In this document: positions 13,656 through 21,269 of the stretch, piece by piece
Numbering within the stretch: the first letter of the stretch is position 1
How the letters are laid out: each line of letters starts with the position of its first letter
Origin: Thermoproteota archaeon
Lineage (GTDB): Archaea > Asgardarchaeota > Njordarchaeia > Njordarchaeales > Njordarchaeaceae
Direction: 5' to 3'
DNA: 48,285 nt
Assembly: GCA_021163045.1 (NCBI GenBank)
Contig: JAGGXM010000065.1
Location: forward strand, 1-48,285
The notes under the pieces: model-generated
The model's input: the letters and a program-made list of their open reading frames with translations, nothing else
What the model was told of the DNA's origin: nothing
Databases searched by the model: none
Made by a program: the position numbers and the translations under genes

Positions 13656-14093
13656 TCACCAACGTATCTCTACGGGAATCTTATAGATATTTCCTCTCTT
13701 GGAACTAACATAAGCTGCGATTTTATTTTTAATATCTTGCTGAAGGGGATCTAAGATAATCATTACGGCATTAGGCGATATATCCCATATAATCTTCATT
13801 GTTTTTAGATCAATTGAAGATGGCGTAACACCAAAATCTGGATGGGTGTGGTAAATTCCTACAAGTTTCGTACCTAAAATCTCACTTTTAATGTATGATC
13901 TTAGAATATCAGTTGGTTCTAATTCAACAAAAGCGTGTTCTCCTATTTTAAGATATTCAGCATAATAAATTTTTATGTACTCATGCGTTGGTTCCCCGAA
14001 GAGTACCCCCGCAGATTCTTTTTGAGGTCTACTGAGCTCTGTTCCGTATCGTATCATAGTTCTATAGGCTCTACGGTAAAGAATTATTCTCAT
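13656..14093 (-). CDS. JAMM/MPN+ metalloprotease (Rpn11-like deubiquitinase candidate)
   Basis: The 145-residue single-domain protein has a complete JAMM zinc site: Glu26 (KESAGVLFGE), His82 and His84 in HTHP, then Ser92 and Asp95 in PSSID (HxHP-x6-SxxD). Such enzymes remove ubiquitin or ubiquitin-like proteins, or cleave SAMP conjugates in archaea. An E2-like gene lies at 20790-21269, so a ubiquitin-like pathway is plausible; E1 and the modifier are not in the window. The start is taken as ATG 14093 behind GAGGT; upstream codons extend the frame by 20 residues but overlap the acetyltransferase gene. It is in an operon with ABCE1 and the GNAT gene. Confidence 0.85.
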   Translation of the reverse strand: MRIILYRRAYRTMIRYGTELSRPQKESAGVLFGEPTHEYIKIYYAEYLKIGEHAFVELEPTDILRSYIKSEILGTKLVGIYHTHPDFGVTPSSIDLKTMKIIWDISPNAVMIILDPLQQDIKNKIAAYVSSKRGNIYKIPVEIRW

Positions 14094-14118
14094 AAGCGAA
14101 AACCTCAGAATAAATGGT

Positions 14119-14691
14119 TTATTTAATCTTATGATTATTTTGTAAAAATTCAAAAATATTAGTTACTTTATCGATCAGATCACTTTTTTTGGCAGCCATG
14201 ATATACGCGTTTTCACCATCGGCATAATAATTAGGTATTTCGCCCACGATTTTCATTTTAAAGCCTTTATATAAGGTTATAGCAGGCATATTGCTTACAC
14301 GGACTTCTAGGAAGACTTCCTTAATGCCATCATCAATCATTTTTTTAGTTGATATTGCAAATAGAGCACTTGCAATTCCTCTTCTTCGGTATTTTGCGAG
14401 TACGCCTAAGGAGAAGATATGGCCCTTCTTGATATAGTGCTCATCTTCACATAATAATGGGCGTCCTTTATCTATTTTATTCATGATATAGCCAATAACA
14501 TCATCAATTGTATCATCAATTGCAACCCAAAAGTAATCCTTAAACAATCTCCATATGGATAAGAATGTGTATCTAGAGTAATTTTCAGGAAGAGTTTCTC
14601 TATTTACGTATATTACGGATGGAATTTCCCTGAAATCGCACCTTTTGAAGAAAATATTTTCTAAACGAAAGTTCAAATTATATTTATCCAT
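14119..14691 (-). CDS. GNAT N-acetyltransferase, Ard1/RimI-like
   Basis: The GNAT core is clear: a strand ending in HIFSLGVLAKYRRRGIASALF with the acetyl-CoA pyrophosphate loop (R-R-x-G-x-A), then EVFLEVRVSNMPAITLYKGFKMK, the usual motif B with Asn and Tyr. This is the pattern of N-terminal alpha-acetyltransferases of the archaeal Ard1/NatA type, with a somewhat longer C-terminus (190 residues). It is the first gene of the apparent GNAT-JAMM-ABCE1 operon. Confidence 0.85.
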   Translation of the reverse strand: MDKYNLNFRLENIFFKRCDFREIPSVIYVNRETLPENYSRYTFLSIWRLFKDYFWVAIDDTIDDVIGYIMNKIDKGRPLLCEDEHYIKKGHIFSLGVLAKYRRRGIASALFAISTKKMIDDGIKEVFLEVRVSNMPAITLYKGFKMKIVGEIPNYYADGENAYIMAAKKSDLIDKVTNIFEFLQNNHKIK

Positions 14692-16910: not shown

Positions 16911-17180
16911 TTAATCAGAAGCTCCCGCCAACCGATCTCGAGCCTCCTTTAGGAGATCTTCATCAATTGATATTTTCTTTCTTACACTTTTATCTTTTAT
17001 AACTCTACTACTTGTGTTAGAAGCTATAGAAATCTCAGCAGGAGGGACCTCCCTGGTATTCTCCTTTATAGGCCTTGCTAATTTTACTCGAAATTTGCAA
17101 ACCGTACACACTAGAAATTCCTCGTTATTAATTTTTCTGTACACTAATATATTACCACACTTTGGACAGAATTCAGGCAT
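16911..17180 (-). CDS. Single zinc-ribbon protein, TFS/RPB9 N-ribbon-like
   Basis: The first 45 residues form an RpoM/TFS-type zinc ribbon: FCPKCGNILVY...LVCTVCKFRVKL. The next 45 are low-complexity and end in a short helix (SIDEDLLKEARDRLAGA). True TFS or RPB9 has a second, C-terminal zinc ribbon; it is absent here and no frameshift is visible. It may therefore be an N-ribbon-only polymerase-binding protein. It is convergent with eS1. Confidence 0.65.
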   Translation of the reverse strand: MPEFCPKCGNILVYRKINNEEFLVCTVCKFRVKLARPIKENTREVPPAEISIASNTSSRVIKDKSVRKKISIDEDLLKEARDRLAGASD

Positions 17181-17663: not shown

Positions 17664-18716
17664 ATGCCAAAGAAAATAAGCCTCGTAATTATTTGTTTGT
17701 TTCTTTTATCAACCAGTACGATGATCTATGGTCTAAAGGCTAATGATGAACAAGGAAAACTTGTACGTGAAATTTTTAATATACTTATAGATGAAGGGCA
17801 TGGACCTATATTTGGACATCGTGAGTTAATGGACGCCTTAAATTATTTAAACAAAACCCTTAAGGTACGAGTGTACGTAAATACCGAGAGCATCGATTAC
17901 ACGAAGCTTGCTGGTATAGATCTTGTAATAATCCCACCATCCAATGGATCGATAGCTTATACACAACAAGAGAGAAAAGCTTTTAAAAGCTACACAATGT
18001 ATGGCGGAGCAATTCTTTTACTAGGTATTCCTTTAAGGAATGATGGAACTAATATGAATCCCCTAGAATTTAATTCGATAATAAGAACGATCTTTGACAG
18101 TTCGCCATTTATGTATTATGAAAAGGATGGTATGGGAGATATTATTTACGATGATATACATGCCTCCGGAGAGATCCTAAACTTGTCTGTGGAGATGCTC
18201 CATACAAATATAACAGAACTTTTTGAGAATATTACAACGATAAATATACGTTCAACATCTATTAGAATTCTAGACGATAAAAATGTTAAAATGATAAATT
18301 TACAAGCATCAGCATATAGTGTGAGCAAAGATGGAACAATAAATTATAACAACGGAACAATCACTATAATGGCATCAAAAGAGATTTCTAGGGGGATCTT
18401 GACAGCCATAGGCTTCGGAGAAGCATTTACAAATATAAAGTCCCCCTATGGTTCTCCTTGGATAGATCTCGAAGGAAATAAAAACCTATTTAAAAATATA
18501 ATACTTTGGATATTAAGATTAAATCGCTGGTTTAAGGAGGATATAAAACCAGCACAGGATATCTATCTGTACTATATTATCACATCTGGGATCTCATTCA
18601 GTTTATATTATATAATGTTCAAAAGAGAACAACGAGAGGAAATATTAAAGAGAAAAGCAAAGGAGACGATAAAGCCCTCCGAAATTATCAAAAAAATCAG
18701 AGAGAAAAAAGAGTAA
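17664..18716 (+). CDS. Secreted/membrane GATase-like protein, short OST48-like paralogue
   Basis: The N-terminal signal sequence (KKISLVIICLFLLSTSTMIYG) is followed by an outside domain of glutamine-amidotransferase-like fold (about residues 30-285). Visible elements are IDEGHGPIF, DLVIIPPSNGS, GGAILLLGIPL, and a final strand-helix GILTAIGFGEAFTN...NLFKNIILWILRLN. A single membrane helix (about 303-322) and a basic cytoplasmic tail follow. The order matches the N-domain and membrane anchor of OST48/WBP1 of oligosaccharyltransferase and of DUF4350-like archaeal proteins. It lacks the beta-sandwich domain found in the convergent neighbour 18718-20058. Several N-x-S/T sites suggest glycosylation. 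The function is unproven. Confidence 0.6.
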   Translation: MPKKISLVIICLFLLSTSTMIYGLKANDEQGKLVREIFNILIDEGHGPIFGHRELMDALNYLNKTLKVRVYVNTESIDYTKLAGIDLVIIPPSNGSIAYTQQERKAFKSYTMYGGAILLLGIPLRNDGTNMNPLEFNSIIRTIFDSSPFMYYEKDGMGDIIYDDIHASGEILNLSVEMLHTNITELFENITTINIRSTSIRILDDKNVKMINLQASAYSVSKDGTINYNNGTITIMASKEISRGILTAIGFGEAFTNIKSPYGSPWIDLEGNKNLFKNIILWILRLNRWFKEDIKPAQDIYLYYIITSGISFSLYYIMFKREQREEILKRKAKETIKPSEIIKKIREKKE

Positions 18717-18717
18717 A

Positions 18718-20058
18718 TCACTCTTTCTTAATTTTTTCTACGGTTTTACTAATCAGCTCCTTATTCTTCTTATAGTATGGAAATAGAGCTACAATGAGAC
18801 CTATTAAAAGTAGCCCAGGAATACCCAGTCCAATTACAGATACTATGAAAGAATAAACAGTCTCAACGTTTTTTGGGATTAGTATAACAGTAACCTCTTG
18901 ATCTGACCAGAAGAATCCAAAATATTTCTTATATGCAACAACATAAATATTTGTTAGACCCTTCGAAAGATTAGAAACATCAATTTGCAGGAAATATACA
19001 TTTGTATCGTTAACTCTTGAGGCATTTTCTTTGAGTATTATAATTGAGCCCCTAGCCAAAACTACTGTAAATATAGTTTCATTTAATACACTATTATCCG
19101 GCACATCAGCAACAAACGAGACATTTAGTACCGCTGGTTGTATGTTTATATAGACAGTAGAGGGTGTAGCTTTAAGATCACCGATATTTATATATGCGGT
19201 TTGCTTTCCGATCCAGTTAATCAATCCTCTGAAGAGCAATATATTATCAAATTCACTATTTGATAAGTATTTATTTGTAAAAGCCAAATCTGAGCCAAGT
19301 AAGAAAACTTTACCACCTGTCCATAGCTCTATTAAATGGCACAATGAAACATTTCTCCCATACAGTTCGTTAGGATCTCTTGTTTGATTATTATTCTCAT
19401 CTACAAAAGTAGAGTTTAATCCCCATATTAGGCTATAATCCACAAACTTTACTGATATGGTTGCATTTCTCCCTGACTTAATAAAAGCACCACTATTTGG
19501 TATGGAAATCTCTCTGAAATCGTAGTAGGTAAATATCGGATGATTTCTTATCCAAGTGTTCTGCACTAAGGGTATTCGTGAATCGTTTCCAAAATTAGAG
19601 CTATTATCTAGGATCGGTCCAATAACATCTAGACCGAATAAATCCAAGAAATAACCATATGTAGAGATATTTTCGAAAGGAATTCCTAGAATGACAGAGC
19701 CTCCTTCTAAAAGAAAAGTTTCTATAAGTTTCCAAGTATCGTTACTTACATAGGTTTGGCCTATAAGTATTAGGACATCTAGATCGGCTATTTGAACATA
19801 TTGGGTAATGGAAGTAAGCTCTGTGTAGTAAAACCCATCTTCGGTGATAATATTAATGAAAAGCGATAATTGTGTCTTGCTAAACGTGGGTGAACCGCCG
19901 ATATATAACCCAAAAGAAATACTAGATGCGGGTGGTGCGGATTTAATCGGTGATGGATTTAGGATCTTACCATTAATAGCGCCATTAATAGGCACTAGAA
20001 GAATTACTAATACAATAAGCAGATTTAGATATTTTTGGCTATTACTGGATATGCCCAT
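18718..20058 (-). CDS. OST48/WBP1-like type I membrane protein (candidate)
   Basis: A signal peptide (about 1-28) leads into a GATase-like domain (about 48-285) with the same landmarks as its neighbour: SLFINIITEDGFYYTEL, LDVLILIGQ, LLEGGSVILGIPF, and GGKVFLLGSDLAFTNKYL...LLFRGLINWI. A predicted beta-sandwich (about 290-400, ending in TNIYVVAYKK), a membrane helix (about 403-429) and a Lys-rich tail follow. Eukaryotic OST48 has exactly this series: a 'GGGSVL' strand, an 'RVIFSGSLDFFSD' strand followed by a 'RWVF' helix, a beta domain and one C-terminal membrane helix. Many N-x-S/T sequons are present. Identity is low, so the call is an architectural one. Generic DUF4350-type surface protein is the alternative. 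Confidence 0.55.
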   Translation of the reverse strand: MGISSNSQKYLNLLIVLVILLVPINGAINGKILNPSPIKSAPPASSISFGLYIGGSPTFSKTQLSLFINIITEDGFYYTELTSITQYVQIADLDVLILIGQTYVSNDTWKLIETFLLEGGSVILGIPFENISTYGYFLDLFGLDVIGPILDNSSNFGNDSRIPLVQNTWIRNHPIFTYYDFREISIPNSGAFIKSGRNATISVKFVDYSLIWGLNSTFVDENNNQTRDPNELYGRNVSLCHLIELWTGGKVFLLGSDLAFTNKYLSNSEFDNILLFRGLINWIGKQTAYINIGDLKATPSTVYINIQPAVLNVSFVADVPDNSVLNETIFTVVLARGSIIILKENASRVNDTNVYFLQIDVSNLSKGLTNIYVVAYKKYFGFFWSDQEVTVILIPKNVETVYSFIVSVIGLGIPGLLLIGLIVALFPYYKKNKELISKTVEKIKKE

Positions 20059-20143: not shown

Positions 20144-20779
20144 ATGAGTCTTGAAAAATTTTGGGAAAACATTAAAAAAATATGGATAGATGGTAGGGGT
20201 TATCAACTATTAGAAATTTTGGATGAAAATGAAGAATCACGAGAAGCCATATTCAAGAAGAAGAAATCTAGAGCGTATGTATTAGTAACATCGAAACAAA
20301 TTTCAGTTCAATTAGTTCGTAGAACTATTGAAAAAATTAAGGAACTTGGATGCAACGAGGCTATGATGGCTACACTCGGAAAGCTTACAACACAAGCAAA
20401 GGTTCTGGGAGAACAAGAAAATATTGAGTTTGTTCATAGGAAGGAACCATTAGTATATGCATTCGACCATTGGTTGGTACCAAAACATAGAATTCTAAGT
20501 TCTAAAGAGGCGAAAGAAATAATACAAAAATACACAAATGGAAAACCCGAGCAACTGCCAAAAATATCTGTATTAGATCCGACTGTTCGGATATTAAGAG
20601 CAAAACCGGGAGATATAATAGAGGTAATACGAGAGATACCAGAGAAAGAGAAGCTTATTGAAAAATACGGGGAAAAATTTGGATCTATGGTCTATGAACT
20701 TCTGAGAGAACTCACTCCTGCAGGACGAGAGATATCATATAGATTAGTTGTAGAAGAACCTGAGGAATTTTTATTTTAG
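20144..20779 (+). CDS. rpoH: RNA polymerase subunit H with RPB5-like N-terminal domain
   Basis: Residues 108-211 are the archaeal RpoH/RPB5 assembly domain: FDHWLVPKHRILSSKEAKEI, EQLPKISVLDPTVR, AKPGDIIEVIR and ISYRLVVEE. Archaeal RpoH is normally about 80 residues. Here about 107 extra N-terminal residues (LEKFWENIKKIWIDGRGYQL..., then ...LTTQAKVLGEQENIEFVHRKEPLVY) line up in order with the jaw domain of eukaryotic RPB5, which also runs through 'ITPSAMK' and 'IETF' into 'HHELVPKH'. A further 25-30 residue insertion sits at about 165-195. The start is ATG 20144 behind GGTGGT. It precedes the E2 gene by 10 bases, not rpoB as is usual. Confidence 0.9.
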   Translation: MSLEKFWENIKKIWIDGRGYQLLEILDENEESREAIFKKKKSRAYVLVTSKQISVQLVRRTIEKIKELGCNEAMMATLGKLTTQAKVLGEQENIEFVHRKEPLVYAFDHWLVPKHRILSSKEAKEIIQKYTNGKPEQLPKISVLDPTVRILRAKPGDIIEVIREIPEKEKLIEKYGEKFGSMVYELLRELTPAGREISYRLVVEEPEEFLF

Positions 20780-20789
20780 GTGATCTATC

Positions 20790-21269
20790 TTGCAACTAGA
20801 TGAAAAAGCATTTCAAAAACGTTTACTTTTTGAGTTAAATCAAGTACGCCGAGAAGCACCAACCTTTCGCCCGCGTAATGATCTAACAGAATGGATTGGA
20901 TATATAATGGGTACAGGGCCTTACGAGGGTGGAATATTTGTATTTAGAATAAAAATTCCAAGGACGTATCCATTTACGCCTCCGATCGTGGAAGCTTTAA
21001 CACCAATCTTTCATCCAAACATTTCTGAAAGCGGGAAGGTTTGCCTTGATGTTTTTCAAAAAAAATGGCTCACATCGATGTCCTTAGTAGATGTGATCAA
21101 CTCTCTTAGATTAATTTTTGATATAGAACTAGCAAATCCAGATAACTACTTTAATTTTAGAGCAGCAACGACGTTAAAACGTTCCAAACAAGAATTTATT
21201 AAAATTGCTCAAGAATGGACTAAAAAATTTGCAACATGGGAGAAAGCCAGAGAGTTAGGAATTAAATAA
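20790..21269 (+). CDS. Ubiquitin-conjugating E2-like enzyme
   Basis: The UBC fold is complete in 159 residues: IPRTYPFTPPIVEALTPIFHPN with the HPN tripeptide at 75-77, the catalytic cysteine Cys85 in SGKVCLDVF, then KKWLTSMSLVDVINSLRLIF as in eukaryotic E2s (where Trp and LTI follow), and a C-terminal helical part with NPDNYFN. E2 enzymes carry activated ubiquitin-like proteins. The TTG start follows AGGTGAT at normal spacing. It is in one operon with RpoH; the JAMM protein is at 13656-14093. No E1, RING or ubiquitin gene is in the window. Confidence 0.9.
   Translation: MQLDEKAFQKRLLFELNQVRREAPTFRPRNDLTEWIGYIMGTGPYEGGIFVFRIKIPRTYPFTPPIVEALTPIFHPNISESGKVCLDVFQKKWLTSMSLVDVINSLRLIFDIELANPDNYFNFRAATTLKRSKQEFIKIAQEWTKKFATWEKARELGIK

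Follow-up and report, generated by a model that had tools for sequence, protein, structure and literature searches.

A two-domain RNA polymerase subunit H with a probable RPB5-type jaw domain in an archaeon of the Njord order

The rpoH (rpo5) gene at positions 20144..20779 (+) of the window (the whole 48,285-nucleotide stretch of DNA analysed here) encodes a homologue of RNA polymerase subunit H / RPB5 that carries an N-terminal domain (N-domain) ahead of the domain known from other archaeal RpoH proteins. The host is an Asgard archaeon of the Njordarchaeales group, in a phylum that also takes in Borrarchaeum, Sifarchaeum and Jordarchaeia. We consider it likely that the gene product is a normal polymerase subunit of this archaeon and a two-domain homologue of eukaryotic RPB5, and that the N-domain probably lies at the position of the RPB5 jaw. 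The N-domain of RPB5 (RPB5-N) has been stated to be found only in eukaryotes (PMC3906176) and called eukaryote-specific (PMC2675907), and RPB5 is described there as the one among the subunits common to archaea and eukaryotes whose size differs most.

Domain layout and coding status of the rpoH gene

The rpoH frame is open over exactly this interval and gives 211 residues plus the stop codon, which is included in the coordinates (alternative GTG/TTG starts are possible 3–4 codons upstream); the translation and a Pfam Rpb5_C match bear out the original prediction of a long RpoH of this length at this place. The N-domain (residues 1–107; 20144..20464, +) is supported by a profile of archaeal N-domains, Pfam Mrr_cat, an AlphaFold2 (AF2) model and fold searches. 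It is followed, from the H-W-LVPKH junction onward, by the C-terminal assembly domain (C-domain; residues 108–165; 20465..20638, +), for which the Pfam Rpb5_C (PF01191) match covers residues 108–169 at 9.6e-19 and the closest solved relatives found by phmmer are archaeal Rpo5 crystal and cryo-EM chains. The RpoH/RPB5 family residues H.LVP.H and QLP.I..DP are present and are invariant in our alignment. In this family, assembly of the subunit onto the largest subunit of the polymerase is the task of the C-domain. The single-domain RpoH/Rpo5 proteins of Pyrococcus, Sulfolobus and Methanothermobacter are 33–41% (Foldseek) or 41–51% (VIA) identical to the window protein in the C-domain but, unlike it, have no N-domain.

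Alignments and the model place a C-domain insertion of net ~25 residues, absent from RPB5, at about residues 166–192 (20639..20719, +). It is predicted by AF2 to form two helices (168–175 and 177–190) and is limited to families f1 and f2 of the Njord order, the C-domain being otherwise highly conserved; the last Rpb5_C strand follows it at residues 193–205 (AGREISYRLVVEE; 20720..20758, +; alignment and model). The protein had also been said to have the size of eukaryotic RPB5, and the total of 211 residues does agree, but the equality is partly a coincidence of a shorter N-domain and the C-domain insertion: the N-domain has 107 residues, ~35 fewer than the ~142 in yeast (in eukaryotes a long loop follows the RGY strand), and the C-domain has ~104 residues rather than 73 because of the net 25-residue insertion at 167–192. 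Most other archaeal long forms have 179–220 residues.

The source genome is a 1.51 Mb MAG of 187 contigs that is 73% complete, of which the window is contig 180, and rpoH gives its single Rpb5_C match, which marks it as the polymerase subunit of this genome and not an additional paralogue (at this completeness a second copy could be missed). The fragmentation of the assembly lends some colour to the idea that the extension is an artefact, either a chance frame upstream of an ordinary short rpoH or the product of a chimeric contig, as does a genome labelled as the same species (G369) that has short forms only, namely two different short rpoH genes (L125 and L126). However, no DNA in common with the 5 kb around rpoH was detectable in G369, which is more than twice the size of the window genome, is 12% contaminated and is probably a mislabelled or mixed bin. 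Independent assemblies also carry the full-length protein, with 210–211 residues and 57–61% identity in three same-genus genomes and with 48–50% identity in two genomes that belong to the same order but to another family (overall range 209–211 residues); in a fourth same-genus genome rpoH is divided between two contig ends. The N-domain codons of the closest pair (L003/L004) differ by 0.12/0.10/0.49 at positions 1/2/3, the pattern left by purifying selection, and the two membrane-protein genes that neighbour rpoH are kept in three relatives. The N-terminal extension is real coding sequence, and an artefact can for practical purposes be dismissed.

The two neighbouring genes (17664-18716, +, and 18718-20058, −) encode membrane-anchored proteins with no Pfam match at E 0.001, and similar membrane-protein genes flank rpoH in the Njord relatives L091, L093 and L094. 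Immediately downstream, rpoH is followed by a gene for a ubiquitin-conjugating E2-like protein (20790-21269, +; Pfam UQ_con 3e-29), and upstream, both on the reverse strand, lie a JAB/Rpn11-like gene (13656-14153, −; Pfam 9e-10) and a gene for a small zinc-ribbon protein (16911-17180, −); these three may possibly be parts of an archaeal ubiquitin-like system. When rpoB/rpoA were looked for beside the long rpoH genes, no large adjacent ORF fit for rpoB was found at the loci examined; splitting of this gene cluster is known in Asgard genomes (PMC10833476).

Fold and kinship of the N-domain

The whole-protein AF2 model, built on an alignment of 20 locus proteins, has a pLDDT of 90.4 and predicts residues 3–98 to form a helix-strand-strand-strand-helix-strand-helix-strand arrangement; predicted alone, the N-domain has a pLDDT of 90.5. 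RPB5 is the top match of the whole model (Foldseek E 8e-13), with superpositions that take in both domains together at Z 12–15 over ~170 residues and rmsd ~3 Å (VIA Z 15.3, 171 residues, rmsd 2.8, 25% identity), against Z 11.2 for AF1548, 10.3 for EndoMS and ~10 for single-domain archaeal Rpo5. Residues 1–107 thus modelled have the RPB5-jaw fold and not an unrelated one. The claim of an RPB5 jaw agrees with the model as far as the fold goes, but the fold class is Mrr-type PD-(D/E)XK, and AF1548 (Z 11.7) and EndoMS (Z 10.7) match the isolated N-domain as well as RPB5-N does (~Z 10). Structure therefore gives the fold class and not the specific kinship, and the structure of the isolated domain was dropped as proof of a particular relationship to RPB5.

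Profile searches agree with this class: the N-domain alone matches Pfam Mrr_cat at E 1.8e-4 (22.0 bits; cut-off 21), the N-domains of relatives match it at up to 8.6e-12 (45.6 bits), and the corresponding stretch of eukaryotic RPB5s matches it weakly (0.028 and 0.0053). Mrr-type nucleases (Mrr_cat; AF1548, the EndoMS/NucS C-domain, MspJI, EcoT38I) share the fold and profile of the window N-domain, which differs from them in having lost the catalytic residues and in being fused to a polymerase subunit. The Mrr-type fold might suggest that the polymerase carries an active nuclease here, such as one that serves defence or transcription-coupled repair, but the catalytic-strand (D/E/Q)xK motif is absent from 50 of the 52 archaeal N-domains, the matches in the other two do not fall at the expected position, and ~21 of the 52 retain the motif-II acid. 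An Mrr nuclease function was rejected, since the catalytic residues are missing, and we regard an active enzyme as very improbable; the N-domain is, according to the model, a separately folded, inactive Mrr-type PD-(D/E)XK domain. RPB5-N was previously published as an inactive PD-(D/E)XK fold (PMC1185551).

Eukaryotic RPB5 and the window RpoH are alike in their two domains, the order of these, the junction and the folds, but their N-domains are only 14–17% identical. As had been proposed, the ~107 N-terminal residues do align in order with RPB5-N and run into the LVPKH junction, and the features along them follow the RPB5-N sequence: R-G-Y after helix 1, V-G-V..R, T..A, E and the H.LVP.H junction. 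The RGY arginine is invariant in all aligned archaeal long forms and in three fungal RPB5s, and the T, A and E of the later motifs are 92–96% conserved in archaea and common to the three fungal sequences. A profile of 16 Asgard N-domains, from which the C-domain had been removed, was searched against all PDB sequences, and all of its significant matches (11 of 11) are RPB5 subunits, with E-values of 1.2e-7 for Arabidopsis, 4e-7 to 1.4e-6 for animals, 0.0014 for S. pombe and 0.0097 for yeast; nothing besides RPB5 fell below 0.05, and no other PD-(D/E)XK protein was listed to E 10. Together with the superposition of the model, this excludes chance.

In hhalign comparisons, for which the RPB5-N profile consisted of three fungal sequences only (the yeast sequence being identical to 1dzf), the archaeal N-domains match RPB5-N with a probability of 93% (E 2.8e-7, 86 columns), two f18 sequences alone with 77%, six Njord-order sequences with 83%, and three stand-alone Mrr-like paralogues from Bathyarchaeia with 3%. 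The archaeal N-domains match these paralogues with 99%, above the 93% obtained with the three-sequence RPB5-N profile. Stand-alone Bathyarchaeia proteins in which the same N-domain precedes a cysteine-rich stretch (L127, L128 and L129) are the closest non-polymerase relatives of the N-domain that were found.

The Pfam model of the eukaryotic domain, PF03871 (RPB5_N), stops before the best-conserved part and does not match the window protein; a search of its own genome with PF03871 gave no match, the controls being equally silent. Across the Asgard genomes the matches of PF03871 below E 1 are for the most part scattered noise, and at rpoH loci it matches f18 only (23.5–27.1 bits with a cut-off of 27, the upper value being reached when neighbouring pieces in frame are counted; 8.7e-5), plus f17/f22 weakly. 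The family profile, rather than any single sequence, and the two-domain layout support a specific homology of the N-domain to RPB5-N.

Distribution and origin of the fusion

The survey covered 195 Asgard genomes, 300 Thermoproteota genomes, the class Bathyarchaeia and the Thermococci phylum. An RpoH match was obtained in 180 of the 195 Asgard genomes, about 119 of these 180 have the N-domain, and it occurs in 20 of the 27 families that have any match (Asgard counts were read by eye from a table and include genes on truncated contigs); families f5, f7, f9, f10, f15, f19 and f27 have the short form only. Named carriers of the long form are Borrarchaeum, Sifarchaeum, Jordarchaeia, Sigynarchaeota, Njordarchaeota and several Bathyarchaeota. 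The N-domain is present in 39 of the 300 Thermoproteota genomes and in 40 of the 75 Bathyarchaeia genomes with a match, counts that fit the Thermoproteota long forms being those of Bathyarchaeia, and it was found in 0 of 61 genomes of the Thermococci phylum. The starting assumption that archaeal RpoH normally has ~80 residues is right for the Thermococci phylum and most of the Thermoproteota sampled, but the Asgard majority is long and Bathyarchaeia are commonly long, which makes the long form a wider and older phenomenon than a peculiarity of one Asgard archaeon.

Several variants of the long form were seen during the survey. The RpoH frame of L014, L030, L101 and L117 (families f17 and f22) has 440–500 residues, among them several N-domain-like repeats ahead of the C-domain; tandem pairs of long rpoH genes are frequent in family f6 (L041, L045); and the long RpoH of L026, L031 and L035 (f18) ends in a Lys/Ala/Pro-rich tail of 70–170 residues with KKTPSK repeats, histone H1-like in character. 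The 212-residue RpoH of L042 (G007, family f4, of the same order as the window genome) has an N-terminal part too divergent to align.

A tree of both domains, with the short forms included, unites the Bathyarchaeial long forms in one group (support 88), leaves the deep branches unresolved and places fungal RPB5s weakly among the short forms (75). In the tree of the N-domain the eukaryotes fall inside Asgard archaea beside f18 (91/75), the RPB5-N branch is very long (2.9 changes per column), and the AU test does not reject (p 0.2) a tree that has RPB5-N beside the stand-alone Mrr-like paralogues. The placement of eukaryotes with f18 is accordingly a lead only, and neither tree is strong enough to date the fusion.

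The fusion would have taken place once, in archaea and before eukaryotes; the short-form groups would lack it through loss or because they never had it, and eukaryotes would have inherited it as the RPB5 jaw. Since some Asgard families have short forms only, such a single origin, which we infer, needs losses or transfers. In its fuller version, to which we give about an even chance, what has been taken for a eukaryotic addition began in archaea, where an Mrr-type, restriction-endonuclease-like domain was captured ahead of RpoH and inactivated before the split of Asgard archaea and Bathyarchaeia (or with spread between them), and it reached eukaryotes from an Asgard lineage, f18 being the closest form that survives. 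Archaeal RpoH and RPB5 might instead have acquired their Mrr-type PD-(D/E)XK domains separately, each ahead of the same C-domain. The fold is common to many nucleases, Mrr_cat matches archaeal N-domains far better than PF03871 does, and the AU test allows RPB5-N with the stand-alone paralogues, all of which would suit two fusions. However, among the PD-(D/E)XK chains of the PDB the archaeal profile retrieves RPB5 alone, RPB5-N is found by RpoH-N profiles and not by the stand-alone paralogue profile, and the subunit, the side and the junction are all the same, and we judge independent fusion unlikely, although it is the most serious of the alternatives.

Transfer in the opposite direction, of the RPB5 jaw from early eukaryotes to Asgard archaea, might be thought of because exchanges of proto-eukaryotes with Heimdallarchaeia or Njordarchaeales have been proposed (PMC12395588). 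It sits badly with the much deeper diversity on the archaeal side, with the presence of the long form in Bathyarchaeia and with the archaeal forms being nearer to Mrr_cat than the eukaryotic ones are, and it seems to us highly unlikely. Archaeal origin of the fusion remains our preferred reading, and the RPB5 jaw probably arose in archaea from a disarmed Mrr-type DNA-cutting domain.

Proposed role in the polymerase and significance

From the known architecture of the enzymes (PMC3906176, PMC2675907), the N-domain would most likely sit at the RPB5-jaw site, at the outer end of the downstream DNA channel, and contact DNA there. An inert nuclease fold in this position may hold or guide the entering duplex DNA, probably without cutting it, and the domain could also offer a docking surface for initiation factors. 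In Sulfolobales the jaw locus next to Rpo5 is occupied by Rpo13 (PMC2675907).

The accessible part of a survey of archaeal RNA-polymerase subunits that includes Asgard archaea and Bathyarchaeota does not mention the N-domain (PMC13257274), the main text of a 2023 paper on Heimdallarchaeia names RPB8 alone (PMC10307638), and in the open-access literature searched we found no mention of a jaw domain on archaeal RpoH (earlier notice elsewhere, in subscription papers, preprints or supplements, is possible). The long and short forms of RpoH provide a presence/absence character for Asgard phylogeny, long in most families and short in seven. If the jaw was already present in Asgard and Bathyarchaeial polymerases, one visible difference between the archaeal and eukaryotic enzymes predates eukaryotes, the likely source of the jaw would be a disarmed restriction-nuclease domain, and its function would be open to study in simpler enzymes, including thermostable ones from Njordarchaeales.
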